DNA from: Cinnamomum chago
Lineage: Eukaryota > Streptophyta > Magnoliopsida > Laurales > Lauraceae
DNA length: 64,000 nt
NCBI GenBank assembly: GCA_038049695.1
Contig: CP142454.1
Location: forward strand, 76,485,501-76,549,500
Reading direction: 5' to 3'
Positions 4,636 to 55,000 of this stretch are shown in pieces; position 1 is the first letter of the stretch; each line of letters opens with the position of its first letter. The notes beneath the pieces are model-generated. The model was given only the letters and a program-made list of their open reading frames with translations, was not told where the DNA came from and searched no databases. A program made the position numbers and the translations under genes.

Positions 4636-5869
4636 AAGGATGAAAATATCGGTATCGGCGGGCGTATCGGCCCGCCGCCAAACCGATACGAAGCGGGCGA
4701 TACGTAGCGTATCGGAGATACGTATCGGCGTAGCGGTGCGATTTTAAAAAATCGCCAAAAAAATCTGAAAAAATTCCACAAAATCCAGAAAATTGTAAAA
4801 TGAAAGAAAATGTGGTTCTTTTGCAAAATTAAGTAAGAAAAGGGGGCGTATCGGTGCCCTCAATATATGATGTCCTGTATCGCTGTATAAATAGAAAATA
4901 ATAGTAATGATTAGTTTTTTCACATGTATTCATGTTTCTTAGTCATGTTAACTTAAAAAGTAATGGAAAGCTAAATAGAAAAAAATTAGAACATGAAATA
5001 AAGGCATAAGAATTAAGAAGACTTAAGAGTTAGGTCATTAGTGAACATTGAACAATCAAATATCAATATTTCAGCATTCAAGGTTCAAATTCAATCAAGT
5101 GAATGAACTATGAAGTGATCAACAATCAACATTCAACACCAATTTAGAAATGACAAAGGGAGTAGAGGGTTAGTGAAAGAAATAGGAAATTAGGAATACC
5201 TTGATCACCACCAAAAGGGATTTGGGAGACACTTATATTCATACATTTGAACAATATGTAATGTAAACATCATGATGGTACTATTAGAGCTAAATATCAG
5301 TGTTTAATTGTTAGGGTCACTGTGGTTAGACCTAACCCTAAGCATAAAACTTTGGTGATCAAAATTAGCTTAATATGAACATAAACATTATATGTTGCAT
5401 GCATTCATGATAGATCATTCAATATATGAAAAGTACTGATAAAGAGGCCGAGCCCCGTAGGGCTGTCCGACGGCTCTTTGGGGCTGAAAGCCCCATGCCG
5501 TCGGACTGCCCGGGGCTGGCCCTCCGGGCCGTGGACCATAAAGGCGGGGTTCGGGGCGGCAGCCCCGATTCGATTTTTTTTTTGAACTTACGCAAGATGG
5601 ACCACAAAGAGGTGAAAACAACAACCATAGAGGGGAAGAGATGAAAGAGAAGGGTAAAAAACCCTAAAAAGTCCAAAAGGGGGGGTTATACACGTCGTAT
5701 CGGCCGCCACGCATGTATCGGCCGATACGGGCCGATACGCACCCGTATCGGCCGATACGGGTGCGATACACCTGTATCGCCGATAAATGCTTTGTACCGT
5801 ATCGGCCTTGGCCGATACGGCCGATATATCGGCCGATACGCTTCGTATCGGCCGATATTTTCTTCCATG
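4636..5869. mobile_element. Word-type Mutator-like element W1 (word gtatcgg/ccgatac)
   Basis: A 1.23-kb element bounded by a perfect 9-bp target duplication, ctatacacc, at 4627-4635 and 5870-5878. A 9-bp duplication is characteristic of the Mutator superfamily. Ends are inverted (aaggatgaaaatatcgg on the left, ccgatattttcttccatg on the right). Both ends are crowded with copies of gtatcgg and its complement (4648-4735 on the left, 5695-5856 on the right, including palindromic gtatcggccgatac). No transposase is present, so it is non-autonomous. The interior 4745-4960 is related to the interior of W7 (46457-46670). A GC-rich hairpin island sits at 5446-5575. Confidence 0.85.
5446..5575. other. 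GC-rich multi-hairpin island inside W1
   Basis: About 130 bp of strongly G+C-rich sequence within an A+T-rich element. Stem gtccgacgg (5465-5473) pairs perfectly with ccgtcggac (5498-5506), enclosing a second stem ggggc/gcccc (5480-5484, 5490-5494) with loop tgaaa. A separate stem gcccgg/ccgggc lies at 5508-5513 and 5524-5529. It may be a nested GC-rich insertion or a structured-RNA source. No coding match is recognised. Confidence 0.6.
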
Positions 5870-6245
5870 CTATACACCCGACATCCAAATGAGCGGTATG
5901 AGGTGCGTGCACATACTGACTCATGATATCCCTTGTTTGAGATAAGTCTGGATGAGTAAGAGTGAGATGAGTTTCTTTTCCCCTATGGGACCCTGCATGG
6001 CAGTTGTGCGGGATTCTCCGTTGCTACAATTCAAGCAGCAGAGGTTTTTATTTTTTATTTATATATATCTCACCGTACACCCAACATCCAAATGAGTAGT
6101 ATGAGGTGCTTGCACATATCTACTCACGATACCCATTGCTTGAGATAAGTCTCGACGAGTAAGAGTGAGATGGATTTCTTTTCCCCTATGGAAACCCCCG
6201 CATGGTACTTGTGCTGGATTTTCTGTTCCCGCCATTCAAGCACCA
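5870..6245. repeat. Tandem duplication of a ~180-bp spacer unit
   Basis: The stretch 5870-6040 (tacaccc-gacatccaaatgag, later gagataagtct and ttcccctatgg) is repeated with moderate divergence at about 6066-6240. The first 14 bases of copy one lie before W1 (4622-4635), showing that W1 inserted into the first copy after the duplication arose. Confidence 0.75.
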
Positions 6246-6788: not shown

Positions 6789-9700
6789 TGGATGCAGTCG
6801 CGGATTCACTTAGAATCCCAAGATAGTATATAATTTGTCAAAATACTGCTGCACGACAATTTAAGGTCACCGAAGTACCCTTTTGGACTTTTGGAGAATT
6901 AAAAAAGTCACCTAAATGATGTAACTTATTTTGAGAAATTATGGTTTTTTTGGTTGTAGAACTGAATGGGACCCTTCTCACATGGATTTGGACCCCATGT
7001 GCTTGATCATATGCTTCCATAAACATCATGGCTTGCTCAATTACATGATCTTCCTTCTTAATAGGGCAATCCGCATCATCCTTCCTTGCTTGAGAGGAAC
7101 TTGACCTCGAGTTCTTGTTGGCATATCGGCGTCGTCACTTGCGTTGCTTTCTCCTCTTTCTTTTAGGCTCTACTTTTGCGGTTGAACCTTCTTGTACTTC
7201 TAGATTTTGTTCATGGGCCACTATGACTTGAATTTCTTCAGGAGGTGTATTGCTATAATCATCTGAAATCTGCATCTGGATTTGCTGCTCATCCTACTGT
7301 TGGATCCCCTCAAAGAAAGGATTGATGTACTCGGTTGTTGTTGGGAGATATTCTTGGATAAAAAATGTTTCGCCATTTTGCTCCTCTGTGGTATGCTCGC
7401 CATGGATCAGCAGTGATCTGCAAACTGTCAAGTCAATGCTCTCTTGATCCCCACAATTGAACGGATCTAGACTTTGGATTTGCCCATCCCATTTACAACT
7501 TTTGGAAATACGGTCACCACTAGGTTTTCATCATGGATAGTTTTTAATTATTTCTTCCATTGTGAATCACCCCTCGTGCAAATTGCCATGGTCTCCCCAA
7601 TAGGAGATGACAAGCAGTCATGATAAGCATAACATCACACCAATACACCATATATATCATGCTAGCATGTTCCAACAACAAAATGGACTAGGCATCGTTC
7701 AAACGTGGTTACCTTGTGACCGCTATTAATCCATTCCAATTGGTACGATTGCACAATAAGTTTTGTTGATGGTTGAAGATCCTGCATGACTCATCGGGCC
7801 ACCAGATTAGTGCTGCTACCGTTATCAATCACAAACTCTAGCCGCTGCCATTAACCAAACAAGCAGCTTGAAATACATCCATCTGTGGGTCTTCCTGATT
7901 TCTGTTGCAGGGGGCTGCTGGAACTAATGAACTCTTCTTCGTAGATGATCTTGCCTTCACTATATTTGTCATTATCCTCCTTGTGATTAAGATCTTCCGG
8001 TTGGGACAACCAAGTCTTGCGAATCATCAGTGTCTCTGGTCCATAGCCAACTACCTCATTATCATCATCATCACGATCTACTTCGCCAACCCCGTCATAC
8101 TTTTGTTCGCTTTAATGTTCCAGTTTGACTCTCTTTTCCTACTAGAAACTCGCCAAAGAATTTTATTGCTTGCGGCACTCCGAAGAGATGTGGCCTAACT
8201 CCTTGCACTTGTAGCAACAAATGTTTTGTTGCTCTGAATTTCCCGGCTGTCTCCTTAGCACGACTCTTCGATCCAGCCACGAGGGGTGGGCGCCGCTAGA
8301 CGGCTGGATTGTCTCCAACTTGAAGTGGCCACTGCTTGTCTTAGGCCGGCTTGAGAGCTGACCTCCATGGCTTTGCTACTTCTTGAGTTGCTTCTGGGCA
8401 AGGCTCACTCGTCGGCATGCTTTTGCAAAGCTGAAGATCTGTCCAAGCCCCGTCAGATCGGTTATGTCGGTGAAGTGCGTCAACAACTGCTCTAACTTGT
8501 TCAGATCAGTACATGCAATGAGTTTGTGAGACTCCTCCGCGTATTCATCTACTGTCTGGTCCCATTGTTAAATATGTTGCAGTTGTTGGATGATGAACTG
8601 TGGATAATCGACGGGAGGAAAGGCTTTATGCATCAGGGGCTTCATCTTTTCCCATGACTGACCTTGCGCTTTCCTTGCATTTCTCTAGTAACTTTCATTT
8701 GTTCCCACCAAGCGGAAGCTTGGCCTCACAATTGCACGGCCACTATCTTGACCTTGTGATCATTTGGAATCACTCAATACTTGAAGACGAGCTTGATGGC
8801 TTTGATCCATTCAATGAAGTCATCACCACAGAGGCTACTAAGGTACTTCGGGTTCTACTTTGAGATTTAGATCATCACCTCGATCCTATTGTCTCCTCCA
8901 TGGTTCAAAATAGTGGACGATATGTAGCGTAGTGGCCGCATTATTGGCTGTAGCAGTGGAGGCTGCTATGCTATTTTGAAAATAGTGGCACTACAGTCTA
9001 AAACCTAGTAAAGCCAATCAGTTTTCTTAAAAAAATATTTTTCATATTTTTTCTCCTCAATAGTCTTTCCTAAAGTTGTCTCTACCCTTGTATGGTTCCA
9101 AATCACTAAAACAACACAAGATTGGCTACTACACAATATTTGAATTCTTTTGACCACTTAAAAAACTCACACCGCTATGCAACTTTGTATCGCCGCAAGC
9201 GCTATGTAGCGTTTTGGCCACTGGCCGCTACACCTGCCGCAACCGCTATTTTAATCCTTGGTCTTTGCCTACGGTGATCACCTCACAGGATTCACTGATG
9301 GAAAGGATTAAAAAATCACTTCCATCTGAACCCTATTTTTAGCTTGAATTTGTCAGATCCTTCCTTGCCCCTGGATCCGCAAGTTGTTTGGTGTTTGTGT
9401 GCAGTTTCTCCTCCAGCATTGCAAATCTGGTGTTGGTGTACCCTTGCAAATCCTCTTGCCACACTCCCACAGTCTCTCCCTTTTCAATTCATTGCTGGAT
9501 AAGGGACTTCCACAATTATAGAAGGTCTTGGTGTCGATGGCTCACAGAAGCGGTGGCTTTGATACTACCTGACGCAGTTGCGGATTCACACAAAATCCCA
9601 AGACAGTATATATTCTGTCAAAATACTACTTCACAACAGTTTAAGGTGACTGCAGTACCTTAACTTTTGGAGAATTAAAACAGTCCTCTAAATGTTCATG

Positions 9701-12074: not shown

Positions 12075-12565
12075 CTGATTAGGGTTTAAAAACTTGCCCA
12101 AGTCTGAAGTTGACTCGGCCGACTCGACTTGGACTCGGATATGAGTGACTCGGGTCAATAGGCATCGGTCGAGCTGCACCTCATGAAAATTCCTTTTGAA
12201 GTCCACACATCCAAACCCAAGTTCCTATTTTCCACGTTTACACTGCCTGCAAAATCATCGAAAAGATGATCTTCTCAAAACCCTATCAGGTAAAAAACAA
12301 AGGGATCAAATGTGGACTCTGCAACATGGAAAAAAAGGGCAGCTTCTTCTACAGGAGGAGGAGAAAGAAGATCTCACCCTTCCAGGTCATCCTACAAAAG
12401 AACCTGCAAATAAACGAGCATGCAGGCTTGAAAGTAGTGGCTTCTTCTTCTTCCTACGACAGAAAAAGAAAGAAAGAAAGAAATCTTATTCTTCTTCCTG
12501 CAACATAAAGAAAGGCCCGAACCCAGTTGTTTTTTTCAGAAATGAATGGACTTTCCCCGCCGCAC

Positions 12566-12605
<40 letters not shown>

Positions 12606-13693
12606 ACTACCACCACCACACTACACACACACACACACAAAAAAAAAAGTCTTCTTTCTATTATGGGAAAAAAAGAAAAAGAAAAAGAAATATGCGACTC
12701 GACCCTGAGTTGGTACGTGTTTGGCCAAAGAGCCTTATGTAAGTCTCTTACCCTCGAACCATAGGACCTCACCAACCTTGGCGGAAACTGTGGAATCTGG
12801 AATTACCACCAAATCTGAAATAACAGTGGGATGGGTTGTCAATACTAGTCCAGCTACAAATGTTCAATCAGGATACCAACCTAGTGTATCATTCTTTGCA
12901 GAACCCTTAATGAAATTACAGACCATCTCTTCACCACCTGTTATATCACCACCCATATTTGGTCCCTATATCCTCCTGGAAATATTTGTATGCCTACTAG
13001 TGCTGATCCTTTTCTGAGTGGTTCTAGTCCTCGACGTCACCCTATCACAAATGTCTGGGAATATGACCTGGTACCTTTGGAAATTACGCAACAATCTCTT
13101 TAATCGGTGCCCAATTTGGCCATCATCTGTCAAAACTAAGACCATATAGTTACTGTCAAGGTTGGAAAGCTTTCCGTGTTTACTCTGGATTCTCCTGAGT
13201 CATCTCATTTTAAGGAAAGAACGAGTCAAATACAGGGGAGACTCGGCCAAGTCACCTCATTTTAATAAGTTTGCACTATGAATCATTTGATAGGTAGATT
13301 AGATTGTAAACAATTAATTTTATTTTTAAGTAATTATGCACAAGGTTTGGAGTCAGAATTTAAAAATGATCATGGGAATGTAATTTGAAACTTATATTAG
13401 ATCTTTCTCATTCGATATTTGGACTAACAAATTTTGCAATATGCAATATTTCTTTCTTCTATTTTTCTTATTATAGTATTTTCTTGCATATATAAATTTA
13501 TTAATTCGAATTGATTATCATGAATGCATGTAAATAAATAAATATTATTATTTATACGTATTTGATTTTTTTTAAATATATTTTAATTTATTAAAAAAAC
13601 ATGACTCTCAAGTCGCCGCATTGACTCTATCCAAGTCAATTTTTTTTTTTATTTGGACTAGTTAAGTCCGAGTCATGAGTTTTCCAATCTTGG
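12075..13693. mobile_element. Word-type element W3 (word gactcgg/ccgagtc)
   Basis: Dense gactcgg/gactcga words occur at 12110-12175. More occur at about 13195-13260 and, in mostly inverse orientation, at 13600-13672. The outer ends look like a degraded inverted pair (ggtttaaaaactt on the left; gagttttccaatcttgg on the right). I found no clean target duplication, so the limits are approximate. The interior contains the AC microsatellite. Confidence 0.5.
12566..12640. repeat. AC/CACCAC microsatellite
   Basis: Runs of (ac)n with an interrupting cac-rich stretch, followed by a poly-A run. The open reading frames over this region are low-complexity His/Thr repeats and not genes. Confidence 0.9.
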
Positions 13694-14440: not shown

Positions 14441-14442
14441 AA

Positions 14443-15529: not shown

Positions 15530-15541
15530 CCCTCTGTTTTT

Positions 15542-15572
<31 letters not shown>

Positions 15573-15887: not shown

Positions 15888-15890
15888 TTA

Positions 15891-20126: not shown

Positions 20127-20170
<44 letters not shown>

Positions 20171-23551: not shown

Positions 23552-25662
23552 TCATTCGTAGAGATTGGAAGGGAGACGCGGAGTGAGTATTACTTCGAGT
23601 GGGCCCACCTTGGGCAGTGTCAAGCCAAATCCCTCCTTCATATCCACAGGTTCACCCAATGGGGTCACCATGTCAAAGCCATGTAGCAGCCGAGCCAGGG
23701 TCAGGTGCATCACCTGTGCAGCCAAAGATATACCCGGGCAGGATCTCCTGCCCGACCCGAAAGGCATGAGTTCGAAATGGTGGCCTCTGAAATCCACATC
23801 TGCTTGGGTGGTGAGAAATCTCTCTGGTTTATACTGCTCAGGATCCGACCACTTGCGTGGGTCCCTTTGAATCTTCCAAATGTTTGAAATCAACCATGTT
23901 CCAGCAGGGACATAATAGCCATTGATGTAGCAGCTTTCCATGGCCTGGTGGGGTATTGAGAGTGGGCCTGCTGGGTATAGACGCATTGTTTCCTTTATGA
24001 TGGCTTGTAGGTAGACCAGGTTCTTTATATCTGATTCGTCCACATTCCTGTCCTTTCCCACTTGAGTATCTAATTCATGTTGGGCTTTCTTTAACACGTC
24101 TGGATTGTTGAGTAGTAGTGCGACTGCCCACGCCATCGTCACGGAAGTAGTGTCCGTCCCAGCTATGATCAGCACCTGCATGGACACAAAACAGAGAATT
24201 TAATTACTTCATTTTGTGTAACCCATGGAAGTCCTTGTTTGTTTGATCTATAGTTTATACTCACTCTCTCTCTCTCTCTCTCTCTCTCTTCCTTTTTATG
24301 AAACCCACACAAACACAGCAAGTTGAGAACGCAAGATGTGAGGAGCCAACCACGCCTAATGCCACTCCACATTATTAACACCTCATGTACTTCACCATTT
24401 TGCAGGCCTTTGTAGTCTTTCATGTCCTTTCTACCGGTGCGTTCATCCAAATCCATGCAAATTCATGGGATTCAGTGCCTATAAGGAATGCGTGATCAAT
24501 TTGGATGGGTCATAATTACGGTGGGCCATAGTGGGAGTTTCAAAATGTGCGGACAGTGAGGACCGTCATTATAGGACGGGTTCCACATATATATAAAAAT
24601 ATATGCTGAGCGTTTTATTTTTGGAGTCCGAATCCCTTGATCAGTGTTTCCCATGCATGAATATTGAAGTAAAACTCGAAGAAGATGCCACTTTTGTATG
24701 AAGATGATGCAAAAATAACATACCAGTGGGAGTGTTTTAAAAACGGTATCCTGATCGAACTCAGAGAACTTTGCACCTTCTAATGTGGACAGCATCACAT
24801 GTATGAAGTCCTCCCTCCCCTCCACATTACTGGAGAGTCTCATTCGACGGTGCTCTTCCAACCAACTCGTCACTATAGAGTCCATCTCCTTGCCAGTGTT
24901 CTTCATGGCATTCTTGTATCCCCCAAAATCCAACCACTTGAGAAACGGAAGACAATCCGACACAAGGAACATCCCACCTAGATGAAACAGCTCACTTATT
25001 GCTTTCTGGAACCGCCTCGCCTCAACTTCATCACCCCCAGTGTTCTTGCCAAAGTAGCGCTTCCCTGCAATCATCATCACAATAATGTTAAAAATCACGT
25101 CCTTCAGCTGTTGCTTCATGTCCACCTTAACCGGTCGGTTCCCATTCCGTGCCCATACACTGTACAGCTCCTTCATGCACATGTTCACCTCAGCAGCTCG
25201 GACATGCTTGCGCAGCTCGAGCTGGAGGGTGGAAAGCAGCTCAATGGTGGCTATCTTACGCACTTCGCGCCAGTAAGGACCATAAGGGGCGATGCCAAAT
25301 AAGGCATATTCATAACCCAAGTACTTCACTCCAGAGAATCTGGGACGGCCAGCCAGGGCTTGGTCGTTGGTGGTGAAGCACTCCTTGGCTGCCTCCCATG
25401 TGCTTACGACGAACACCCGGTTTACGCCTAGCCGGAGCATGAAGACGGGGCCGAATTTATCTGCCATGGCACCAAAGACCCGAAAGAGAGGCTTGCCTCC
25501 ACCTAGCTGATGAAGGTGACCTATTACAGGCAACGCCCCAGCTGGTTGGGGTGGCTGCCTGCTGTTGGTGCCCTTGGTTTTCTCTCCTTTCCATAATAAA
25601 GTGTAGAAAAAGATGAAAGCTAAGAACCCAACAATAATTTGCAATGGGAAAGGCAATTCCAT
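23552..25662 (-). CDS. Cytochrome P450, CYP82 family (two exons, apparently intact)
   Basis: Exon 1 runs 25662-24724 and exon 2 24175-23552 (stop at 23552-23554), with a GT..AG phase-0 intron of 548 bp. The predicted protein is about 519 residues, normal for CYP82. It has an N-terminal membrane anchor (LPFPLQIIVGFLAFIFFYTLL), a proline-rich hinge (PPQPAGALPVIGHLH), the I-helix oxygen-binding motif AGTDTT (just after the intron), the K-helix KETMR, PERF, and the haem-binding FGSGRRSCPG with its cysteine ligand. CYP82 enzymes are endoplasmic-reticulum monooxygenases of specialised metabolism (alkaloids, phenolics, terpenoid-derived volatiles); the substrate cannot be inferred here. An in-frame Met 12 codons upstream (25698) exists but has weak start context; the Met at 25662 (aagATGG) fits better and puts the anchor at the N-terminus. 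No disabling change is seen. A decayed relative lies upstream at 27440-27870. Confidence 0.9.
24263..24289. repeat. CT microsatellite in the CYP82 intron
   Basis: About thirteen CT units on the plus strand, within the single intron of the P450 gene. Confidence 0.85.
24449..24552. repeat. Dispersed repeat, copy A (P450 intron)
   Basis: Shares aaattcatgggattc, caatttggatgggtcataa and the following ggtgg-cc phrases with 26221-26325. Both are followed or preceded by accgtc-tta words (24550, 25995). The copy lies wholly inside the P450 intron, so it is an insertion and not part of the gene. Confidence 0.6.
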
Positions 25663-25698
25663 CTTTGAATTGAAGCTAGTGTTGAGGTGGATATGCAT

Positions 25699-25940: not shown

Positions 25941-25979
<39 letters not shown>

Positions 25980-33079: not shown

Positions 33080-33920
33080 TAGGCTTGTAAATCAGACCAT
33101 CTCGAGAGAAGGGGCCCAGCCCAGATCGGAACTCAAAAAGCCCTTAAACTGAGGGCTTTCGTTTTCAAGGAAAAGCCTTAGGGCTGGGCTTGGGCGATAT
33201 TTGGCATGCTCTTTTGATGGCCAAGTTTGGACAGTACTAGTGCAGCCTTGGCCATTTTATTTTTCTTTATTTCAAGTAATAAAATGGGGCTGCTTCCATT
33301 CCCTTTCTTCTAGTTTTATTGTTTCTAATGTAAGCTCATTATATTATTTTAATACATATTTACTAGTACAACATACTTTTTCCTCCATAGAGTAACTTGG
33401 GATGCCAATCAATTCACAATTCATAAAGATAGCGTGGAACTTCAAGAATATGGGGTGACCCAAATATCTATTTAATTAGATATTTACGGCTTCCAATTTT
33501 TAATAATCTAAACTAACAGTATTTTTTAAGTATTATTTTTGTGACCGAAATCCAATAATGTTTAATTGTCAAATTAGTGTTAAATTGAAAATGATGCCAA
33601 TTCATAAAAGGTAGGTGAAGCCTGGCCCAACAATAGGGATTGTTTAACTAAAAATAATATTTTTTTGGTAAAAAAGAGGAGTTGAACATACATTCACTCA
33701 CACACAAACAAACCTCCCAACCAAGTGAGCTGCAAGTTGGGTTATACCTTCACTTTTATTTATAAAATATAATAGACCCGGTCAGGCTTAACATATCATA
33801 GGTGGGTTGGGCTTGGGCTGGGTACTTATGGCCAGACTTAGTCTTGGCCCAGGCTCAGGTTTGTTGTTTAAAATACAGGCCAAGCCTAGATATTGCTCAG
33901 CCCAGCCCATGAACACCCCT
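33080..33920. mobile_element. Word-type element W4 (word ggctggg/cccagcc)
   Basis: The left end (taggcttgtaaatcag) and right end (gcccatgaacaccccta) form a degraded inverted pair, each followed inward by gggctgggcttggg / gcccagcc words (33110-33195 and 33780-33910). The right terminus matches a common plant repeat end. No target duplication was recovered. Confidence 0.5.
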
Positions 33921-34384
33921 ATATATAGAAATGCATGTGAAAGGTGTGAAATAAAACAAACTCTTTAACCATTTTTCTTTTGAGAAAAGTAAATATAATC
34001 GTATATGTAAAACCCATATGAACAAAACATGTATAATTTTGTCCAATAAAAGAAAGTTTTTAGAGACAACTTCCATTCTCCAAGGATTTTCTTTTAGCGG
34101 TCCCTTTGCAATAGAAGTTAGACAATATAACGCTCAACCAATACTCAATGCTTGGTAATAGTGTAAAAAAAAGTAAAATGATGGTTTTCTTATTTTGATT
34201 GAGGCCATGAGCTTTGCTCTGTCTTGGCCCTAGCCCTCGAGGGTAAGGTAAGGGACTAAGTAGTGCAAGCCCTCTAAGGCCTTTAGTTCACTCGGGCATG
34301 GCCTTGCATATATTAACGGTAGGGTAAGGACAAACCCATAGTCTTAATTGATCAAAATCATTGTCCCCTTCTTTTAATACTAGC

Positions 34385-39197: not shown

Positions 39198-39210
39198 AAA
39201 AAAAAAAAAG

Positions 39211-40094: not shown

Positions 40095-43000
40095 ATGAAT
40101 CCAATCGCAGCAGCAGAAGAACGAATTGTATCAGAGAGAATGAGAAGAAAACTGAACGAAGTTAACATTGAAGCACAGAACCAGCTCTCAGGAATACAAG
40201 ACCATGTCAATTTCACTCTCCAGGTTCATAAAAAAAAAAAACCCCTTCTCTCTATCTCTTCAATTCCAATCACCCCAACCTTCTTGGGTGTCTTTGGAGA
40301 TCTGGGTCGCTTCTGTTTCTCTTAATTTTTACATTTTCTTTCTGGGTATTTGTCCTTTCTTTGAGTAATTGCTTAAATTGGGTGGTTGCAGCAAGCCTAC
40401 TTCAAATGCGCCTACGATTGCTTCGACAGAAGAAGAAAGCAAGAAGAGATTAGTAACTGCGTCGAGCACTGCAGCGTTCCTGTTTTGAATGCCAACAATT
40501 TGGTTGAGGATGAAATGGCTAAGTTTCAGGTAACTAAAAAAAAAGTAGTTAGTTCTTTGTTACATTTGATGTTTGGGTGTTTGCTTTTGTTTTCCGAAAC
40601 ATATAAGAAAATCGCTTCTCTCATTGAGCTTGGAAATGGGTTTCCTCTATTTTGTTGAGAATTAAACAACACAACCAATTTTGGAAAAGTATTTCTATTC
40701 TGTTGCTGGCATCTGTACTTGCCTCATTATCATCAGCTTAGCTTTATTTGATCAATATAGGTCGGCTAGAAGCGTCTTACTGTCTGTCTCTGGGTGTATA
40801 TATGAAAGTGTTAAAGTGTCTTATTTGTGGCTATGAGAGGAATGCGAGTAACCTAGAGAAACATAAAGAGAGCACTAGCGTGTTTGGATGTATGGTGAAT
40901 TGAAGTAAAGTGAGGTGAAGCCTCCATTAACATAAGACAAATGGGTCATATCAAAGTACACAAATTCAAAATTTCCTCCTTTTTTTTAAAAAAGAAAAAA
41001 ATGAACCTCCTTTCTCCACTAAATGACAATAAAAAAATTCTCTTTTTACACAAAAAGTCAAAAAGATTCCCTATCAAGCTACTAAAAACAAAAGATCATC
41101 ATAATCCATTACTTTTTATTCTCTCTTGATTTAATGCTTCACCTAACTTTATTTCTATTCACCAGGATGATATCCTGTGACATGCATCCCCTAGAAAGTA
41201 TATTTTGATAGGCTTCTGTTGTATGATCAACCTAGTTAGTTATGCATTGGTTAGGTTAGGTTATGTTTGTTGGTTTTGAAGGATTTAAAAGATATAAAAT
41301 GGGGTTTGAATTTGCTTATGTAGGTGTTGTGAGGGACCTTTTCCTTGTCCAATATCTATTAAACTTGAATGCACATTATATTAGGAAATAGGAAGTGCTT
41401 ATGAAGGCTTGTGAACAAACCTAAAAAATCCTTTGGGAAGAATTTGGTAGAATTTTCTGGGAAAGATTCTTTCGTGCATGCTTGTTGAGTTGCACTGAGT
41501 TGAGTCAATTTTATTTTGGTGTTGCACGGTGTGTACATGCTTTTGTGTGCGAGACTCACACGTGGCTATGGTGCTTAGGCTCCCTCCTAGGCCTATGAAA
41601 TTTTGTTTCCCATTCCTTTCCTTTTAGCTATTGTAGGTATGGTTCGGCTGTACCATACTTGCGGGTATTGTCATTGGCCACCTTTGAGGTAGCGCATGTT
41701 AGAGTTCCACATGACAGTGGTGGTCTGGCTCATAGTTATCAGAATCCTACGATTCGTATTCCGAATTCCGATTCGTATCCCAAATCTTAAGGAAAACGAT
41801 TTGTATCTATGTAATGAATCCCATTTAAAAATGAATCTTAGGATTCATTGAATCCTACGATTTGATACTCGTTTCATTGAATCTTACGATTCAAGCGATT
41901 TGACTAAGCGAGAATGGCTATAGCCAATAAGCTAATATTAATAATCTTTTACCTTTTTTCTTTCTTTATTCTCTCTTTCTTTTATTGCTTGTATTTTTAA
42001 AAGGTTATTTAGTAGTTAACGAAACCTCGTAATAATTTTTTACACCTTTGATAAGGTTTTAAAGATGAATAAAGAACATGCATTTAACTAAAGCATTCAA
42101 CTGTCCGTATGGTGCTTGTTTATATCTTCTTCTTTTTTAATCTATTTTGGTTTTTTTTCTTCATGAATACTTTCTTAACTTTAAGAGATATCCTACCATG
42201 TAAGATTGATGGTTTGGGTTTTATTTTATTTTTATATTCTGATTTAAAGATAATAAAAAATCTATATTGATATTTTAAACTTATTCAACTATATGGAATA
42301 ATATATGTCATGATGCTCTTGATATGATTGTATGATAGACTTGTTATTATATTTATACTACTATAGATGGAAAAATGGATGGTTATGAATAATTACTTTT
42401 TTTTTCTTTTTCTTTTATTTTTTAATTATTTTCATTTTTATTAGAAAAATAAAAAATCCTACGATTCACGATACGATTCGCGATTTGATTCGATTCATGG
42501 GTATGAACGATTTACGATATGATTCCAATTTTGAAAACTATGGTCTGGCTTCTCTAGAAGGCTTCTCTAGAAAGCTTCCTTGCTTCCCGTGGCAGCCTTT
42601 TCTTTTCTTTTTTTTTTATCCCTTCTCTTTCTAGAAATGATCTTTCTCCTTCATAACTTTATTTCCTTTAATTTTGTTCAACTTTGGGCAAACTAGTAAT
42701 CTGCTGGGTGTACCAGTGGGTCTAGATTGTGTGTTCACCTGATCTAGTCTGTTGATTGTGACAAGAAGTGCCGGTATATATCCCAAGGATAAAGGAGCTG
42801 TGATCTAGTGTACCTAGAGCATAGTTACCTAATTCGTTCCTGTAGGTGCCGAATCACGAACTATTCAAATCAAATAATTCATGATTCGATTCACTTGAAT
42901 TCGGGATTCTCATAATCTTCTGTTCGATGGAGTTCGTTACTGCTGCAGTTAGCAGGAAGGAGTGGGAAACGATGTGTCAACATATCTTTCTCAAAACATG

Positions 43001-46000
43001 ACATGATACACGTGTTACCATCTAAAGGTTTAACAGCAATCATAAAGGGTGGCCCAGTGGCCCCATCCAAATATAAATTTTTTGTTGGATTCTCTGTCAG
43101 AAACATAATCATCTAGTGGGGCTTGCTGAATGGCCAACATCTGATGAATGGCCAACATATAGTCAGAAACATAGTCATCTAATTCTTTCCATTGAATGGC
43201 CAACATCTGATGACTCATATATTTTATCAATGGCTAATTCATCAAGCCTTATTTTTTATGGCAGGCCCATAGGGCCACTCCTCGTGTGTAACGCCCCACC
43301 CTACACGCATGCATGATATTGTTCAGTTTGGCTCACGGGCCTCACGGTTTTGTTTCTGGCAGGCCTCAACCCACCAAAAGGCCTAATGCAAGGTAAGGGT
43401 GCAAGCTCTATATATAATCCCAGTAACCTGCCAGTCCTCTTGGCCCGCCCACATGGAAACCCGCCCACTTGCGCAGGGACTCACACTCGAACTAGTTGGG
43501 AGTCGGGTCTGATACCATTTGTAATGCCCTACCCTACACGCATGCATGATATTGTCCGCTTTGGCTCATGGGAGTCCAACTCAATCTTGTCTCACGGTTT
43601 TAAAAGGCCTCATGCAAGGTAAGGGTGCAAGCTCTACATATAATCCCAATTACTTTCCTCTCTATAGTCGATGTGGGACTCCAGGGCGTCACATCGTGCC
43701 ACATGCCTACCATCCTACTTAGGCAAGGCAAGTTTATGTTAAAATAATGCAATATGGAGCAATCTGGAGGTGGGATGTCTACGTACGCTAGCTAGAAAGA
43801 CAGCTAGGAAGTGATTTGACTGGATTTATATCAATTTTGAATTCAAATTCTCCCTGAATTTAGAGAGATTTAAGCTTACCTATTTTAATTCATTGTGTTT
43901 GTGCCTACATCTTGAATGCTCCAGTTTTCTAATCTACGAGTGATCAAGCTAATGTTTTTTTTTTTTCTTAAACAAAACTAATGTTGTTGTTCAACTCTAA
44001 TTCAAGTGAAATGTCATATGAAGATAACACATCATATGATGGTTACATCCGGTATTTAGGATTTCATATATGGCCCACACTAATTAATTTATAGAGTATA
44101 AAGGCCTTCCTTTTGACACAAAACTAGACGTGGTCATGATGGAGTTTGTAGGGCCATATTGAGACATTGAGCCCCGAGTAGACAGGAGAGATTGAAAGGC
44201 CTCACTTCCATATGCAGGCTCACTGATCAGATGGGACATCTTTTGTTTGAATTAGTGTTGCTTTTATTATAAGTTTTCATGAAACATCATTTTTACCTTT
44301 TGCAAAATCTAAGAATTTTTGTAAATCAAATTATACTATCGCCAACTATATTGAATTTTATACTCGAATTAGTTCAATGAGTTACTTGAACTCGAATTGC
44401 AAATCAAGCGAATCAGAAAACGAATTAACTGAACCTACTCCATCGAATTTTTTAATGTAGTGCTAAAGAGCAAAAAGATGCCTGATGCATGGAGGAAAAG
44501 TTTTCTTATACCCATATACAAGAACAAAGGAGATATTCAGAACTGTGCGAACTACCGCGTGATTAAATTAATGAGCCATACAATGAAATTATGGAAGAGA
44601 ATTATTGAGAGAAGACTACGAAGAACAACAAACATTTCAGAGAATCAATTTGGTTTCATGCCTGGGAGATCAACCATGGAGGCTATCTGTCTCCTAAGAA
44701 GGTTAATGGAACAATAATAGAGCAGGTCAGAGAGATTTACATATGGTGTTCATTGACTTGGAGAAGGCCCATGACCGGGTTCTTAGGGAGATTCTATGGA
44801 GAGTACTGGAAAAGAAAAGAGTGTGTGTCGCATATATTGAGGCGATAAAGAATATGTATAATAGAGCCGTGACATCTATAAAAACGACTGGCGGAGAGAC
44901 TAAAGAGTTTCCTATCACGATTGGTCTACACCAAGGCTCAGCGTTAAGCCCGTACTTGTTTGCCCTAGTTATGGATGAGATTACAAGACATATTCAGGAT
45001 GAGGTGCCGTGGTGTATGCTATTTGCAGATGACATTGTTTTAGTGGATGAGACGAGAGGAGTGAATGCTAAGCTAGAATTGGGGCGGAAAACGTTAGAAA
45101 CAAAAGGGTTTAGGCTAAGTCGATGCAAGACGGAATATATGGAATGCAAGTTTAATCAAAGTAGGACACCTGGTAACTTAGAAGTAAGTTTGGGCATACA
45201 AAAGATTGTAGAGAAAGAAAACTTTAGGTACCTTGGATCTATGGTGCAACAAGATGGAGAGATTGATATTGATGTAAGTCACATGATTCAGGCTGGGTGG
45301 ACCAAATGGAGGAGTGCTTCGGGGGTCTTGTGTGATCGGAAAGACCCCCTCAAGGTTAAAGGAAAGTATTATAAGGTGGCGGTACGTCCAGCATTGTTAT
45401 ATAGATCAGAGTGTTGGGCAGTAAAACATAATCATGTTAAGAAGATGAAAGTTGCGGAGATGAGAATGCTAAGATTGATGTGCGGGATCACAAGGAGAGA
45501 TAGGATTATGAATGAAGAGATTAGGGGCAAACTAGGAATAGCACCGATTAAAGATAAAATGAGAGAAAATCGACTGAGATGGTTCGGCCATGTTAGAAGG
45601 CGCCCAACGGAGGCACCTGTTAAAATGTGTGAAAGCATGGAGATTGCCCGGAGTAGGAGAGGGAGAGGGAGAGGGAGACCCAAGAGAAGTTGTAAAGAAA
45701 CTATTAAACATGACCTTGCCTACATGGATCTAACGGAGGACATGGCCCTAAACAGATTTGATTGGCGTCGTCAAATCCATATAGCCGACCCCACCTAGTG
45801 GGAAAAGGCTTGGTTTGGTTTGGTTTATATATCAAATTGCGAACTGCAAATTCGAACCTGAATTGATCGAATTGCGAATATGGTACATATGGTCTAGAGA
45901 TCATCCATGTGAGGGAATCTGTCTATAAGATAGCATTACTGGAACGTTCTTCGGCTCTTATCTACTTGAAGCCAATTATCTGTCTCAATTTTTGGATTTT

Positions 46001-49000
46001 ATTTTCTACTCATTTTTTGGGATTTCCCAACCAGTAATGTTATCATTAGACTAGTCACTATCCAACAATGTGGCCCTATCCCATATATTTAGGGTCACCT
46101 TCATGAGATGAGTTCTACCTTTCCACTTGCCTTATTCGAATCTATGTCGTAAACAATATAGAAATTTTGGCCTAGTAATTTTCTATTTGGTCAGGATCGT
46201 GATTTAATCAATAAGAGAAATGATTACATTCTGGAGCAAAGGATGTGTTATTGGGTTACATTGTGAAGGTGTCAAGAAACTTAATCTATTCAAGCATGGG
46301 TCCACATAGTTAACAACCTTAGAACTCCTATTTGACCTGCAAACAAGGATCAAAATAGTGGTTGCGGTGGGCGTAGGGCCAGTAGCCAAAACGCTACGTA
46401 GCGACCGTCGAATGATACGTAGTGGTAGCGGGGATACGTAACGGCGTAGCGGTGTGAATCGAAAAGGTTGTCAACAAATTTTGAAAAAAATACCCAGAAA
46501 ATCCAGAATATTGGAAAATGTTAGAATTTGATGATTATTTTTCTATAATAAGTAAGATAGAGGGGAGTAGCGGTCCCTTCAATGCATAAAAATTCTGTAT
46601 CGTTGAATGATTATTAAAAAACAATATTGATGTAATTTTTTTCATGTATTCATGTTGGTTAGCCATATAAAATATAGCCAACGGTTCAGATCTTCATATA
46701 AGCGCGCCCCCCCCCCCCCCCCCACCCAAAAAAAAAAAAAAATTTATATAATGATTCACGGTTTTTTTGCAAATATCTTGAAATCCGTAATGTATCAACA
46801 GTTGAGTTTTGGTATGGTGGCTACTCAGTATTTTCAAGAGTTTGTATGGTTCAGATTACAGTTTGTGGCCCCACAATTGAAGAAAAAATGAGGCAAATAG
46901 TGTAACGCCCCAATTCCGGATACCGATATACTCGTTCGATTTCCTGAAATTGGCGCGCTACTTCCCGGAAAATCCGAGAACTTCCAAGATCGTAGGCCGC
47001 AGTGAGGTCCAATTTAAAACTTTTTGACCAACATAGTTATAACATTTAAATTGCGGAAGCATAACGATTTAAACAATGCGGAAGCAATAGTATCGAGATA
47101 TAAGTTTAAGTGTGAGCAAAACATAGTCTATTAAATGATTCAATGTAAATTCAAAGTTATACATTTTCCATTCTACCCTTCTCACTACAAATGTCACTCA
47201 AAACCCAAAATAACATAAACTCTCAGAACCCTGGAATGTACTCCTCGCCCTCCGGCTCGACGTCCGTGTCGGCCGGGCCCCAAGCGTACTCTCCTGCCAC
47301 GGGTGCCTCCACTAAGGCTAATGCGTCGTCGGGAATCTCTGGGTCAAGGCCTAAGCACCATAGAATGGGTCAGATCTAAACGATCTGGCAAGATACAGTA
47401 TACTACTAACATAGAACATATATATCAAAGGGAGTAAAGACAGGTACATAATTAAATGAGTAACAAAGGAAGTGAACTAGGCAGTTGTGCATTTAAATCA
47501 TAAGGAATCAGTATAAATAGAAACATCTAAACTACTATAAACAAGGTGGCACATTCACACGAGCTGGAATACCGCGGGATATTATGCCGCGGCCCTCCCA
47601 TACTGAACACAGTCGCGGTGGGGAATCTCACCAGGGAATAACTAATCCCGAACATCACTCATCATCTCATCACTCCAGATCGGCATGGTATGACACCTTG
47701 CCGTCTTAACCACACAGCTCATCATGATAGCTTCACCATACTCAACTAGCTCCTACCGGGGATGATCAGTCCACAGGCTGAGCTTAAATCAACCGAGTGA
47801 ATGTTCATGCCGACTCGAGAATAACTCTAAGGTCTGTGTCTGTCTAGGCTTTGCCTTGCGTGAACAAGGTCCTAACAATATCCCTAAGAGGTCCAAACAT
47901 CTCAACACAGTCTCTGGATCTCATTCAAGGTCCAGGCCCACTCGTTGGATCCATACCAAGGCCCATCAGTACATGGCCTGGTCTAAAACCGTCCAAACGA
48001 GGCAACCAATCCATCTACTACTGACAATCGGTTCCATCATAATCCATATAACTTAACAGTCCAATAGAACTACCTCTTCCAGCTAAAGGGTTCACATCTC
48101 CACACTTAGGCCCAGTAAGGGCCCGCCTAGACACAGACACGGGTCAATGATCTTCGAAACCACATTATCGGGTCACCTCTAGATACCCTAGGTTCAGGTC
48201 TTCCAATTATGATTAATTAACGGTAAACAGCTATTCTAAGATCTAAGAACGACATAGTAAAATAACAGTGAAGTATAAACTTCACTCAGAGAATCAACGG
48301 GAAAAGCAACGGTCCAATCCTAGGTAAATGGGCCACTTTAGGTTCGGGTCTATCTCCGGTAATTCGATCTCTAAATGATGTCATTAATGCCGTAAAATAA
48401 TGTATTTGGTGCTTAGTTGATTAAAGGCATTGTTGACAACTTTTAGGGTTCGAATCATCTTAGATAATCAACCAAAACACTAAACAGTGGGCCCCGCGAG
48501 TCAAGGTTGAGCCACACCATTGACTCGGGCTTGGATCACTGATAAACGTTCATTTGGATGGTCAATGGGCCCCACAACTGTTCATAACTCCTAAATGTTG
48601 AAAACTGGAACAATCAGGGTTTTCCAGGTGATCCTGATGTGTTGTGAGCTCGGTTGATCACCTGGCCGGGTGGATCAACCGAGTGCACTGACTAACCTGA
48701 GTCAGGCCTCCTGGAAGACTTAATTCATTTCTAAAGGTTTCCAGCGTGTCCGGTCAAACACCTGGCCTGGGTGATTGACCGCATACACCAAAAACCCTAG
48801 AAAGATGGATGTCCCAGCTTTACACATTTTCTACTGTAAATCCTAAGTATCAGGTCATCTTTTCCATGAAATTTCAGTCACTGAGCTCGGTCCTGCACTG
48901 AGCTCGGCCATGCACTGGTCTCGGCCATGCACTGCACTGCACTGGTCTCGGCCATGTACTGAGCTCGGTCCTGCACTGGTCTCGGCCATGCACTGCACTG

Positions 49001-52000
49001 TACTGGTCTCGGCCATGTACTGCACTGGTCTCGGCCATGCACTGCACTGCACTGGTCTCGGCCATGCACTGCACTGCACTGGTTTGGGCCATGCACTGCA
49101 CTGCACTGGTTTCGGCCATGTACTGCACTGGTCTAGGCCATACACTGCACTGCACTGGTCTCGGCCATGCACTGCACTGCACTGGTCTCGGCCATGCACT
49201 GCACTGGTCTCGGCCATGCACTGCACTGCACTGGTTTCGGCCATGCACTGCACTGGTCTAGGCCATGCACTGCACTGCACTGGTCTCGGCCATGCACTGC
49301 ACTGCACTGGTCTCGGCCATGCACTGATCTCGGCCATACGCTGGTCTCGGCCATGCACTGATCTCGGCCATGCACTGATCTCGGCCATGCACTGGTCTCG
49401 GCCATGCACTGAGACCAGTTTTCAGGTTTTCTCCATTTCAACCCGTTTTTCCACCAAATCACTTACAATCAGTCCCAAACTTCACCAAATCATCTCCAAA
49501 CATCAAATAACTCTAATGCCCATTAATTTACATCCTTGTGGCCCATTGATCTTCCAAATGGGGGGTGAAACCCCCATCCATCAATGCCAATCCATCCCAT
49601 AAACAAACAACTAAGCTCAGGTAGAATTTCTATGACTAATTAGTGACAATCATGAAATCAAACTACAGAAATCAAAGGAAAGACAACATATATTCTAAGT
49701 TAACAGTAAGATGCACTTGCCTTTTAGCTTGAGAGAGAGATTTGTAGAGAGAAAGAGCAATAGAAGAGAACCCAGCTGAACCAGAGGAAGTGAAGAAGAA
49801 GATAACCCAGCTGCTGTAGCAGTGGCCCCAGCACACAGTAATCTCAGAAATGAGGGAAATGAGGGAGAGGAAGTGAAGAGAAGGTGTAGTGGCTGTAGCA
49901 GCTCTAAGGAGAACTCAGCACAGCAGTAGTCTCCCAGTGAAGAAAAGAGAGAGGAAGAAGAAGAAGTGGCAGCTGCTGTAGCTCCAATGGGTTCCAGCAA
50001 CAGTCACAGCTGCAGAGTCTTGGAGAAATGAAATGGGAAGGGGAGATGGGGTAATAACAACAGCTCTTGGAAAATTCCAGCAGAACAGTAGCAGAGAAGA
50101 AGCAGTTGCAGCACAGCCCAGGGGGAAACAGAGGAAGAGTTCCAGCAGAGGTTCAGCCCAGTAGAGAGGATGAAGAGAAGAAGATGAGGTAGTGGGGTAG
50201 TGGCTGATGCAGAGGAGGAGGAGAGATGAAGGAGAAGGGTTGCAACAGCTGTAAGATGCTCCCAGCACAGTCACAGTAGAATGCTTAGCTCAATACGTTG
50301 GAAGAGGAAGGAGGAGAAGAGAGTTGCAATGGGAGTGAAGACAGTTGGGAGTTTTCTTGGGAAGGGGGCTGGAGGTTTTCTTGGGAAAGGGGTTAGCTTA
50401 GGTTTTAGGGTTTTGGGGATAAGAGAGGTTTTATAGTTTTAAGGGGGGTGACTAATTACCATCTTAGCCCTAGGGTTTTCATGTAGTTAGGGTTAGGGCT
50501 GGGGGTAGTTGGGTCATTAGGCTGGAAGCTTCTAGAGAGGGCACCCTTTGCACTAACCCAACCTTAATTAGTTAATTAAACTCTATTAATGGCCTAACTA
50601 GCACTAATAGCCTAGGTTTAGCACTAACACCCAATTAATTGAAAATTCTACTCAACTAAGCTAATCTAACTAGAAGCTAGGAGAATCTAACTAATCTCTC
50701 TAATAACCCCTAATTAGCACAAATAAAGAGTAATTAACCAAGATTAGCAAAGATTAGTAGAGATTAGTAGGGATTAGTAGTAATTAGCAATAATTAACCA
50801 ATAATTAACATAGATTAGCAATAATTAGCTAAGATTAGTATAATTAACCAATAATTAGCATAAATTAAGATTAATTAGCGTATAAAATAGCATTTAGAGG
50901 GCCCACCAAGGGTGGGACCTCACAAATAGACACCCCAAACCCAGTTAGTTTGGCCAAGGACATCAACGGTGGATCAGTTTTCAGGAAATTCCTCGAGATC
51001 CACAAAGAATCAAAGACTAATTTTTGAACCCATAGCCGTTTTTGGCTTTCCAAAGAGGGCCAACGGTTTGGATCATGATTACGGGCCCCACTAAAGTCCA
51101 GAAATTAAGATCAATGGCTGTCGTTTTTACAAAAATCTCGAGATCCGTGATATATCAACGGCTGAAATTTCACTGATGGGCCGTTTTGGGCCTTCTTAAT
51201 ACTTCTAATGGTTTGGATCATGATTGAGGGTCCCAGTTTTGAAAAAAAAAAAGAAGAAAAAAGCGTGACAACAAAACTGCCACCCAAAAGCACTGTCCAT
51301 GCCATCTCTTCCTGCTTCAGAGATGCTCATTTGTTTCAAGTGGGGACGTTTTCTTTGCTGCGTCAAATAGATGATTTTCCTCTTTATGTGGATTGAAATA
51401 GATATGCTAAAATAATTCCCAAACGCTATAAATGCGTTTTGAATCCTCTTTAAGATAATAAGATGTTGAAAATAGATATGCCAAACAAGCACTAAGTTAG
51501 ATTCTATCATACATTTCTAAATTCATAATTCAAATAAGCAATTTAATACAACTGTATATAGCAAAGGATATATAAATTATAAAAAAAATACTTAAATAAA
51601 GTTTTAAGTTCAAACTAAATAATAGATTACCTTTTATCAAAACAAACATTGTGTTTTTGTTGAGTGTAGAGAAAAGAATACCTCTACTAAAGGGGGTGTC
51701 TACCTAAATAAGAGCGCTTAAGAAGAACTCTCTATATTGACTATGTAATTCGGTGAGATCATGTATTTTTTGGTGTTCCTTTAAGCATAAAAGGGTAGAA
51801 GAGTTGCGTAGAAATGTTATTTGGAGAGAAGAAGAAAAGAAATAAGTCTTATTATGCATTTAAAATTTTTTTGTATAGTAGAAATATGGCCGTAGCGGGC
51901 CCGCAGCAGCCGTAGCGGACCGTAGCTCTACGGGTGTGAGCGGTGCTAAATTCCATTTAGCATAGTGGTCTTCACTGCTACACCCGATATAGCGTAACGG

Positions 52001-55000
52001 CCGCTATTTTGATCCATGCCTGTATGTCCATAATTTGGATTATTATCTAGCGTATAATTGCTAGATTTGTTAGTTTAGTTATTAAATGATTGGCAGTGGT
52101 ATATATTCTAGCATCATTGAAAAGTATGAATCTCATTATTCACTATTTTCACTTCTAGTTATTTTGCTCATCGCCCTTCTTGTGTGTTTCTTCTTTATCG
52201 AGTGAATGTGACTGCCTACAAAACTGGAGCACCTGACTCAAGCTGAACCAAGGAGAAGGAACCTGGAATCCCTCTTCCCCGGGACTTGAACTCTTACATA
52301 AATTTTGAACTTGTATTGAGCTCAAAATTAAATCCATCATTGTTTGGTTCTATGCCCAGGTTTCAATCCCTATGCCACTCTTCCCACTCGTGTGGGCTTC
52401 TCTTCCCACGTATGTAGGCTCTCCTTCCCATGGTGTGCTTTGTACCAACCAAGCAACAAAGCTGACTTGTGAAAAAAGAGTCAGAAAGCAGTACTTTGCA
52501 CAAATTGTTTGTAAGCTAGGGTACCAGGTTTTTCACTTGCTTTCTCATTACATGTGAGAAAGTCACCTTTGCTTTTACTGGTCATCTTGTAATATTATTA
52601 AAGAATGGAAAATGTCAAAGGTTCAACTTTAAAAGGTACCAACTATGTAATTGTGTTGGTTTAGTTTCTTTTCACAATCAAAGCTTAAGAATGAGGCAAC
52701 TGTAATAACCAAGGGCATCCCTTAGTACTGTAGAATCCCACTTTGGTCTGTATAAATTCTGATAAGCACCTCGCCTTTATCATTTATAAGGGCCCTCCAG
52801 TTCCAATGAACCTTGGTTCCCAATGAAAACTATATAGTATAAGAGAACAATATTGCACACAAAAAAACCCCAACAAAAAATGGCGGAAAAGCAACCGAAG
52901 CCAAAAAAGAAAGAGAGCCAAAGCCCCCAAAAAATGGTATAAACCCAAAACGAAGAACAGATTACGAAGGAGCATAAATGATCAAAGAAGATTTAAGAAC
53001 TCCCTCTTTGGCAAGCTGATCCGCTTCTGCATTGCTTGATCGCATATATGAAGGAAAGAAATGTTTAAATCACCCAACAGCTAAACCACCTCTTCTATGA
53101 TATCTGCATTAAGCTATTAACTTTGGTAAGTAGATTCTTTAAATAGGTTCAGTGTGCACATCATATGATGTCCAATACTTTGTTTGTGGACTTTTTCCAT
53201 AGTAGTCAATTCCGTTCCGGTCCCTGTTCCAATTTGACCCTGTAATGGAACGTTTCGCCATTCCGGTTAATTATGGCGTTCACTTCCAGAGAAGACAATT
53301 GAAAAATGAATAAAAAAATAAAAGAATACCTAAAATTGAAAAAATAGTTTAAGGCTAAAATAATACTAAGAATGCATACTTATATCACTTACATTAAACA
53401 GAATGCATACTTATATATATCACTTACATTAAACAACAGGTTACAATTGACCATTTTCTAGGTTTCACTATATACAAATGTACGTATAAAACATGGGCCA
53501 GAATTGGGACTGGAATGGACTGAAATGACCATCATAGACTGGAATTAAGAACCTGGAAACTTTTAGGGGGGTATTTAGTTTCGCCAGAGGCCAATTCCAG
53601 AAAGTTCCGGCAGGAATTGACCGAAATGGAATGGAATTGACAACTATGCTTTTCTTCCTTTAATATCCATTATGTATTTGGATACTTGATCCTTATTTCA
53701 CTTGGGTAACAAAAATCAAAATTTAGTTTTTTTTCTTCCCCTAATTGGTAATGTGACTTTAACCTATAACCTCCACCTTCTACAACCCACTTCCTCAAAA
53801 TTTAGTATATTTCAATGACCTTCTATCCTTCCATCCAAAGGAGAGGAAAGAACCACTTAAATTCGGCAACTTTTCCAATAGTTTTTTCTCTAACAAAAAG
53901 GTTTGTGGTCCATGCAGCTTCAATTGCCATTTGTATATTGCTGTGCTTTTATAAGCGTGTGGGCCTTACACCTCTGGGCTTGCCTTGAGGTGAGGAAACT
54001 CCCCAGGCTCAAGTCTGAAGCATGGCATGTATTTGAGGCTTATGCTTCACTGTATGGGGCATATTTAAAGGCATATGCCCTAGATCAAGAGTTTGTTTCA
54101 TTATGCTCTAGATCTGGGGGCATTCATTTCATTAACACATCTCATTGTTAAGTAAAAGGGCAATTTATATTAAGTGCTTTAAAGTTCCTTTTTAGTTTAA
54201 GATTGTTGTAATTTGGGTTAACATGTCAACCCAACCAAAATCGACTGTTTTCTATGTATATTAATATATTTGAATTTTATGCAATAATCAATCAATCAAT
54301 TAATTAAAAAAGGTGTGTTCATGAGGCTTATGCCCCATTCTTTGTGCCTCATGTTTTGTGCAATTGTAATGCCTTGCCTCATGCCTCAACATTTTAGAAC
54401 ATTGCTATAAAGGAAGAGAAGAAACCAAAGTGACTGAGGAATTGTACAAGTCTTCTTTTACCAGATAATTCAGTGTGTGCAAGACAAGATGATCCTTTTA
54501 TAGTATATATAGTGTATTAGTGTGGATTTTTTTTAAACTTATATTTTAATCTTTGTATTTTATATAATCCACTCCAGATACTGTTTTGATCTCGGGAAAG
54601 AATGTAAATAGAATAAAAATAGTGAAAAGAGTTCCTAATCTTCAGAGAGCTCATAATATAGTACAGAGTTTGAAAGGTGGACATTAAAGAGATCAAGTTT
54701 ATAAAGTTTTGAAAGGTAGACATTAAAGGGTTGAGGCGGTTTGAAGAAATTGCAGTAACATGATTGTATGGATCTTTAAAAATGTGCATTGGATCATATG
54801 GACCTTAGGCATGATTTATAGAAGTTGATTTAAGCAAGATTTTGGTTTCTCATATGAAGGCCATCTTACATGTGTCAAGTGAAGCCCGAATGTTATGAAA
54901 TTGGTTATGAAGAATCAATGAGTCTGCTGCTTTTCAACAAGCCCAAGATTGTACAATTTGAACAAGAAATAGGTTAAGTTATGGCCATTTCTGATTATGT

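Follow-up and report, generated by a model that had tools for sequence, protein, structure and literature searches.

A 64,000-nucleotide stretch of the Cinnamomum chago genome (contig CP142454.1; C4:76485501-76549500, hereafter the window) contains ten transposable elements, W1-W10, whose ends are packed with copies of a short word. The word differs from element to element and tends to recur at both ends of one element, which raises the question of what these words are, why the two ends agree, and how one word might give way to another. The initial annotation had read the elements as Mutator-like and the words as iterated transposase-binding sites kept identical by gene conversion or end-to-end copying, such that a new word would sweep both ends together. 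Our analysis, in which the searched genome comprised 1.06 Gb in 14 contigs, indicates that the window elements are nonautonomous, decayed cut-and-paste hAT (Ac-like) transposons of several families. We consider it likely that the end words of these hAT families are read by a BED finger, and that in the family comprising W1, W2 and W7 the word has been changing from TAGCGG to TATCGG together with a variant of that finger.

The W1/W2/W7 family and its two ends

Three elements of the window belong to the family in which the word varies:

W1, 4635..5869, plus strand: hAT element with A end left and B end right; terminal inverted repeat (TIR) 16/18; target duplication CTATACAC, 8/8
W1 target duplication CTATACAC, left copy 4627..4634 and right copy 5870-5877, no strand assigned: 8 bp
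W2, 8899..9260, minus strand: short nonautonomous hAT element of the W1 family with B end left and A end right; TAGCGG/TAGTGG words; TIR 14/18; duplication 5/8
W7, 46344..52018, plus strand: long W1-family element with A end left and B end right; TAGCGG/TAGTGG words; TIR 16/18; duplication 5/8

Family membership required that at least five of eight duplication bases match, and 32 members were accepted on this basis; a perfect 8-bp duplication is present in 23 of the 32, and a perfect duplication of 7 or 9 bp in none. The ends of all listed elements were read and target duplications of 7 to 10 bases compared. A separate length scan for perfect duplications with matching terminal repeats, covering lengths 6 to 10 in the window and in loci L001-L052, returned 21 CA-type and 4 TA-type matches at 8 bp, 4 CA-type and 3 TA-type matches at 7 bp, and 0 CA-type and 6 TA-type matches at 9 bp, all six from one tandem repeat in L039; since the scanned loci were picked partly by their CAWGG terminal repeat, this set is enriched for the W1/W2/W7 family. 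The 9-bp duplication initially described for W1 and the 9-10-bp duplication described for W5 are both 8 bp long (8/8), the supposed ninth base being a terminal base of the element that matches by chance.

The family carries a short terminal inverted repeat starting C/TA, CAWGGWTNAAAATA at both ends, and its terminal repeat CAWGGWTNAAAATANYGG was found at 1459+1458 (2917) places in the genome against 1+4 (5) for a reversed-pattern control. A 5.4-kb family copy, L039:97-5509, is flanked by the duplication AGTACACA (8/8) and carries DUF659 (E 2.6e-52) and Dimer_Tnp_hAT (E 5.7e-05; 23.3 bits, cut-off 21.4), and L060, a full-length copy at the A/B pair C1:72679739-72685081, carries zf-BED (E 2.6e-07). 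A Pfam scan of four pieces of L039 and one of L060 found no Mutator-like element (MULE) transposase domain. Both transposon classes are present in the genome, with 150 scored matches each for the hAT dimerisation family and for MULE; the W1/W2/W7 elements are hAT, and the Mutator class first proposed gives way to 8-bp duplications and hAT domains. Tandem repeats occur inside some copies: units of about 154 bp lie between the B end and the finger in L039 (4126-4730), with similar repeats in L062-L064, and the interior of W7 (window 48880-49410) holds a tandem repeat of ACTGCACTGGTCTCGGCCATGC-like units.

From inner sequence, 31 of the 32 elements could be assigned an A end and a B end, both carrying the words TAGCGG or TATCGG and otherwise unrelated in sequence. 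With the terminal repeat set aside, 3% of 62 comparisons between the A end and the B end of the same element give a match, whereas between elements A/A comparisons match in 78% of 930 and B/B comparisons in 29% of 930. Gene conversion between ends was rejected, the A and B ends having no common sequence beyond the terminal repeat; conversion or end-to-end copying as the source of agreement is unsupported because the two ends are unlike and because the new word arrives at them at different times.

In this typing, TATCGG and TAGCGG number 19 and 64 in A ends and 88 and 63 in B ends. The share of TATCGG among the two words is correlated between A and B ends (Spearman 0.77, permutation P 0.0013, a permutation that leaves relatedness in) in the 22 of 31 elements with at least two words per end, nine being dropped; an anticipated correlation of left and right words inside one interior family is thus present. 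A cruder end typing, replaced by the shared-sequence typing used here, had given a weaker value (0.42, n=19, permutation P 0.04). W1, where 6 of 7 words in the A end and 13 of 13 in the B end have T (6 T:1 G and 13 T:0 G), is an end point of the proposed switch, and L039 has one TATCGG and five TAGCGG in its A end against nine and none in its B end. The notion that both ends share a word therefore holds between families and not strictly inside this one, and a new word does reach both ends, at different times rather than in one sweep. Likewise, the suggestion that each word might mark a wholly unrelated family is right in that several families are present, but W1, W2 and W7 form a single family with a varying word. 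A further word state with unlike ends is seen in a W1-family relative, L048:102-1265, whose B end has TAACGG/CCGTTA words and whose A end has CGCGG.

An ordered series of word states

Family ends were listed with two pattern searches in which the variable word base was left open, and for which controls returned 0. Among the 100 A ends listed of 911, the states read from the tip inward were GGG (60), TGG (29), TTG (3) and TTT (8), the other four being absent; among the 100 B ends listed of 1054, they were TT (44), TG (29), GG (26) and GT (1). Listed A and B ends lying less than 7 kb apart formed 40 pairs, distributed as GGG/GG (5), GGG/TG (5), GGG/TT (6), TGG/TT (18), TTG/TT (1), TTT/TT (4) and TGG/GT (1). 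All except the last fit one order (39/40), in which the B end turns to T first and the A end follows from its tip inward. From the occurrence of TGG/TT in 18 copies we infer that the mixed state itself has been copied.

The change is concentrated at the third base of the word, its centre. Counted with matched flanks, G/T changes (A/C on the other strand) affect 124 of 621 word centres in A ends (20.0%) against 264 of 11502 sites elsewhere (2.3%), and 29 of 214 word centres in B ends (13.6%) against 30 of 2916 elsewhere (1.0%); these values supersede an earlier count without matched flanks (20.8% against 3.0% and 20.1% against 3.0%). Transitions are not raised at word centres, with 6.4% against 8.6% elsewhere in A ends and 6.5% against 7.6% in B ends. 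Between the A ends of W1 and L023, 18 of 412 aligned bases differ, and 4 of the 11 transversions fall at word centres. CpG decay as the source of the T/G difference was rejected by reasoning, because T/G is a transversion and CpG decay yields transitions, for example TAGTGG.

In a tree of inner A-end sequence, W1 and L010:3228, which have T at both ends, group with L039 and L023, whose A ends have G and whose B ends have T; all four fall inside an eight-row set (98/96). In the remaining rows of that set, four in number, the A ends have G and the B ends are mixed, and most tree rows outside it have G at A. This arrangement suggests that the change ran from G to T in the W1 lineage.

Several considerations weigh against reading the series as a directed switch. 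The ends listed are perfect matches on C1-C3 (100 of 911 and 100 of 1054), one of the 40 pairs (TGG/GT) is off the ladder, and the pairwise change counts are not mutually independent. The inner-A tree is midpoint-rooted with 13 of its 28 inner branches weak, and the more distant copies L024 and L041 contain T words as well, which weakens deep polarity. Mixed B ends are found across the tree, meaning that some T words were present in B ends before the switch; as these ends already held some T words, the precedence of the B end may partly reflect its starting state.

The finger variant and competing explanations

The BED finger was read in five full-length copies standing at different steps of the ladder (L060-L064) and in L039; several of the transposase genes concerned are broken. 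The finger reads CGKVTNGG in L060 and L061, both GGG/TG, and CGRVTHGG in L062 (TGG/TT), L063 (GGG/TT) and L064 (TTG/TT), and the part that remains in L039, VTHGG, is as in the RVTH form. This RH form occurs at 59 places genome-wide. Among the matches listed on C1-C3 there are 74 finger places, 12 with a listed B end and 20 with a listed A end. The B state is TT in 6/6 pairs with the RH form and TG in 6/6 with the other form, and repeating the comparison with all 100 listed B ends instead of 57 gave the same 12 pairs. T is present in the A end in 4/5 pairs with the RH form and in 0/15 of the others. Direct sequence readings of the non-RH form come only from L060, L061 and five of eight finger places; elsewhere it is deduced from the lack of an RH match.

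These observations are probably connected as follows. In each family, the transposase would recognise, through its N-terminal BED zinc finger, a short word that recurs in both subterminal regions, and it would cut at the short terminal repeat, leaving the 8-bp duplication. Words would then agree between ends because one enzyme must read both, and not because the ends copy each other. The passage from TAGCGG to TATCGG would have taken place one site at a time, at the third base of each word, with the B end changing first and the A end following from the tip inward, in a lineage with an RVTH finger instead of KVTN. The copies do form the ladder and the finger forms do sort with it; its direction and selection by the enzyme we infer. 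A finger that changed its preferred word, with the ends following and B first, would be the simplest account. The fuller succession, whose intermediate steps would be preserved in hundreds of copies and in which the variant arose, the words of one end followed and then those of the other from its tip inward, while copies with mixed ends were still mobile, is offered tentatively, at somewhat less than even chances. The reading as a specificity switch caught midway rests on one lineage, and the binding of the word by the finger is predicted.

The finger association also has points counting against it. The copies that prompted the idea make up five of the 12 pairs with a B end and five of the 20 with an A end; copies outside these agree as well (7 B pairs and 15 A pairs). 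T state, finger variant and youngest clade are one lineage, so the associations between finger and T state are not independent, and the Fisher values of 0.002 and 0.001 overstate them. No residue is singled out, because the finger forms differ at other codons too, and the K-to-R replacement is conservative. By hand alignment, the changed N/H appears to sit just before the stretch matching the base contacts of Hermes. A search of solved-structure sequences gave no Hermes match for the finger stretch of L060; the transposase of L052 matches Hermes across the core (E 4.5e-12 to 2.8e-11).

Parts of the pattern could also come from hitch-hiking in a single lineage or from words spreading mechanically inside an end. 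Under neutral hitch-hiking, chance G-to-T changes would have accumulated in one successful master lineage with binding unaltered; nested states and a young T clade are expected from descent alone, and the finger association stems from a single lineage. We nonetheless hold this to be rather unlikely, as chance would not strike one and the same position in several words of two unrelated ends, and G/T change at word centres exceeds that at other sites about nine-fold in A ends and thirteen-fold in B ends, with transitions not raised. A similarly modest probability attaches to homogenisation of the words within an end by short conversion or template switching between neighbours, through which a variant would spread mechanically. 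The words are indeed tandem and partly palindromic, the step from TGG to TTG alters adjacent units, and the VANC motifs of VANDAL elements are described as spreading through tandem repeat formation (PMC5735166, as far as available). However, the third A-end site changes in place with its own spacers kept, and the A and B ends offer no common sequence for conversion beyond the terminal repeat.

Copies that combine a G-type A end with a T-type B end might, instead of marking steps of the switch, have arisen by recombination between two older subfamilies, though we regard this as improbable. Such copies exist (L023 and L039; 6/40 pairs), but these two resemble W1 at either end, by 97% and 96% over the inner A sequence and by 89% and 81% over the B end, and a recombinant origin was rejected on that ground; among ten copies compared only L010:3228 is nearer W1 at both ends, and a single B end often holds both words (29 TG among the 100 listed). 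Finally, Mutator-like elements with 9-bp duplications, which the 150 scored MULE transposases and the superficial resemblance of W1 and W5 to 9-10 bp duplications might recall, are contradicted for the W1 family by the absence of CA-type matches at 9 bp and by its DUF659, hAT dimerisation and BED domains with no MULE domain among the five pieces scanned, making this explanation highly implausible, with room left only in W4, W8 and W9.

If the finger did change its word, the family bears on a general difficulty. With many iterated sites to bind at two ends, a transposase would appear tied to its word, since altering the finger would forfeit every site at once. Copies preserved at each step, with full-length ones at several of them, allow one to ask whether the finger or the sites changed first, and whether mixed ends are functional.

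Other window elements and known systems

The remaining elements of the window, to which no strand was assigned, are:

W3 (corrected), 13157..13692: 536-bp hAT element with ends CAAGGTTGGAAAGC / CAAGATTGGAAAAC; TGACTC words; duplication GTTACTGT, 8/8
W4, 33080..33921: hAT-like element with right end TAGGGGTGTTCATGGGCTGGGCTG; GGGCTG words; target duplication decayed
W5, 41731..42542: 812-bp hAT element with ends CATAGTTATC / CATAGTTTTC; GATTCA/GATTCG words; duplication GTCTGGCT, 8/8
W6, 42820..45891: CATAG-ended element with a reverse-transcriptase gene piece inside; TIR 13/18; duplication 6/8
W8, 53198..53648: CATAGT-ended element; GGAAT-like words; TIR 16/18; duplication shifted or decayed
W9, 53957..54402: gaggc-word element with approximate borders
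W10, 63888..64000 in the window and to 64350 beyond: hAT element with ends TAGAGGAGTAAATT / TAGCGGTGTAAATC

The borders first proposed for W1, W2, W5, W6, W7 and W8, and the right end of W4, are accurate to within one base. W3 and W10 are real elements as well; W3 as first drawn (12075-13693) was rejected, its perfect duplication placing the borders at 13157-13692, and W10, cut by the window edge, was completed to 64350 with its duplication GTCCGAAC (8/8) at 63880-63887 and 64351-64358, using the adjoining DNA. A partner end was sought for the gactcgg cluster at about 12110-12160, outside the corrected W3, and none was found. The W3 end occurs at 137+181 (318) genome places against 0+0 in the control, and two of its kin (L010:1215-1750 and L054:41-556) have duplications of 8/8 each; no convincing duplication pair was found for the W3-type L055 and L056. 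The W4 end occurs at 514+553 (1067) places genome-wide against 0+0 in the control, and the W5/W6 end at 1011 against 273. Among W5 kin, L059 and L057 have duplications of 7/8 and 6/8, and a search for a convincing pair in L058 found none. When the ends of W4, W8 and W9 were checked, no convincing duplication was found for W4 or W9, and only a shifted one for W8.

Tandem arrays of such ends exist elsewhere in the genome. At C3:120845348-120886830, two variants of W3-type ends alternate about every 1120 bp with a period of 2241 bp, and at C2:2810654-2844105 CATAGTTGTCAAATTCGGGTCC occurs 11 times, about every 3.34 kb, in an array with a hAT-like end. Gene pieces in the window include an RVT_1 match at 44743-45798 within W6 (E 5.4e-18) and a cytochrome P450 piece on the minus strand at 24496-25698 (E 1.1e-24).

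Sharing of words between ends was assessed by removing the terminal 18 bases and comparing the best 6-base word common to both ends with dinucleotide shuffles. Nine of the ten window elements show an excess at p<=0.05, uncorrected (W1, W6 and W7, 0.002; W5, 0.004; W10, 0.028; W2, 0.038; W8, 0.040; W3, 0.044; W4, 0.050; W9, 0.088), and after correction for ten tests the excess remains in W1, W5, W6 and W7 only. Element-specific words are in this sense partly borne out, although the best shared word is not always the one first named, being ATTTGA in W6 and CTGGAA in W8, with a single copy at one end and four copies at the other. Among 16 elements cross-tabulated (the ten of the window and six others), 7 have a left end that is most similar to the right end of the same element.

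Loci fetched through their transposase rather than through a word also carry words at both ends: GGTTCC in L052 (11 and 5 copies), GACCGG in L050 (8 and 10) and CGGGGA in L051 (3 and 3). Two of these, L051:1273-5859 and L052:636-6091, are hAT elements that contain a transposase and are flanked by perfect 8-bp duplications (GCTATAAG and ATTCCATG, respectively), L052 having a 669-amino-acid open frame; element ends were sought at a further transposase locus, L049, and none were found. Counting against a general rule, the ends of the hAT-like L025:984-1904 have no shared word (p 0.996); L020:5183-5969 is borderline (p 0.054). By analogy with known hAT systems, the words are very probably iterated sites of each family's own transposase, in keeping with the initial annotation.

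A close parallel is Ac/Ds of maize. Its hexamer word, AAACGG, recurs within the terminal 200 bp at either end and is bound by the Ac transposase; the system likewise has an 8-bp duplication and many nonautonomous copies with filler, together with 11-bp terminal repeats (PMC3260210). Unlike the present family, Ac/Ds uses other words, and ordered replacement of a word within a family is absent from the Ac account in the available portions of PMC3260210. Nor was a report of ordered word replacement in a hAT element found in the literature consulted, mostly outside subscription journals and available in part. In Hermes, according to the accessible portions of PMC10368747, the BED finger binds subterminal repeats through base contacts at an apical loop and helix, the two ends arrange these repeats differently, and the GTGGC motif needs re-evaluation. 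Herves recognises CG/AATTCAT, which resembles the W5 word, at both of its ends; the study emphasises that the sequence bound varies from one hAT transposase to another (PMC3143072, available in part). Hermes and Herves are insect hAT elements, unlike those described here.

VANDAL elements belong to the Mutator superfamily. Their VANC system in Arabidopsis resembles the present one in having a short iterated motif, with C- and T-type variants between related elements, that evolves together with the protein reading it; it differs in that the reader is an anti-silencing protein and not a transposase, and in the placement of the motifs within non-coding sequence, introns included (PMC5735166, as far as available). 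The window words most likely fit the Ac/Hermes/Herves pattern of subterminal sites, to which binding would extend by analogy, and the iterated, element-specific words at both ends very probably correspond to the known subterminal transposase-binding repeats of hAT elements.

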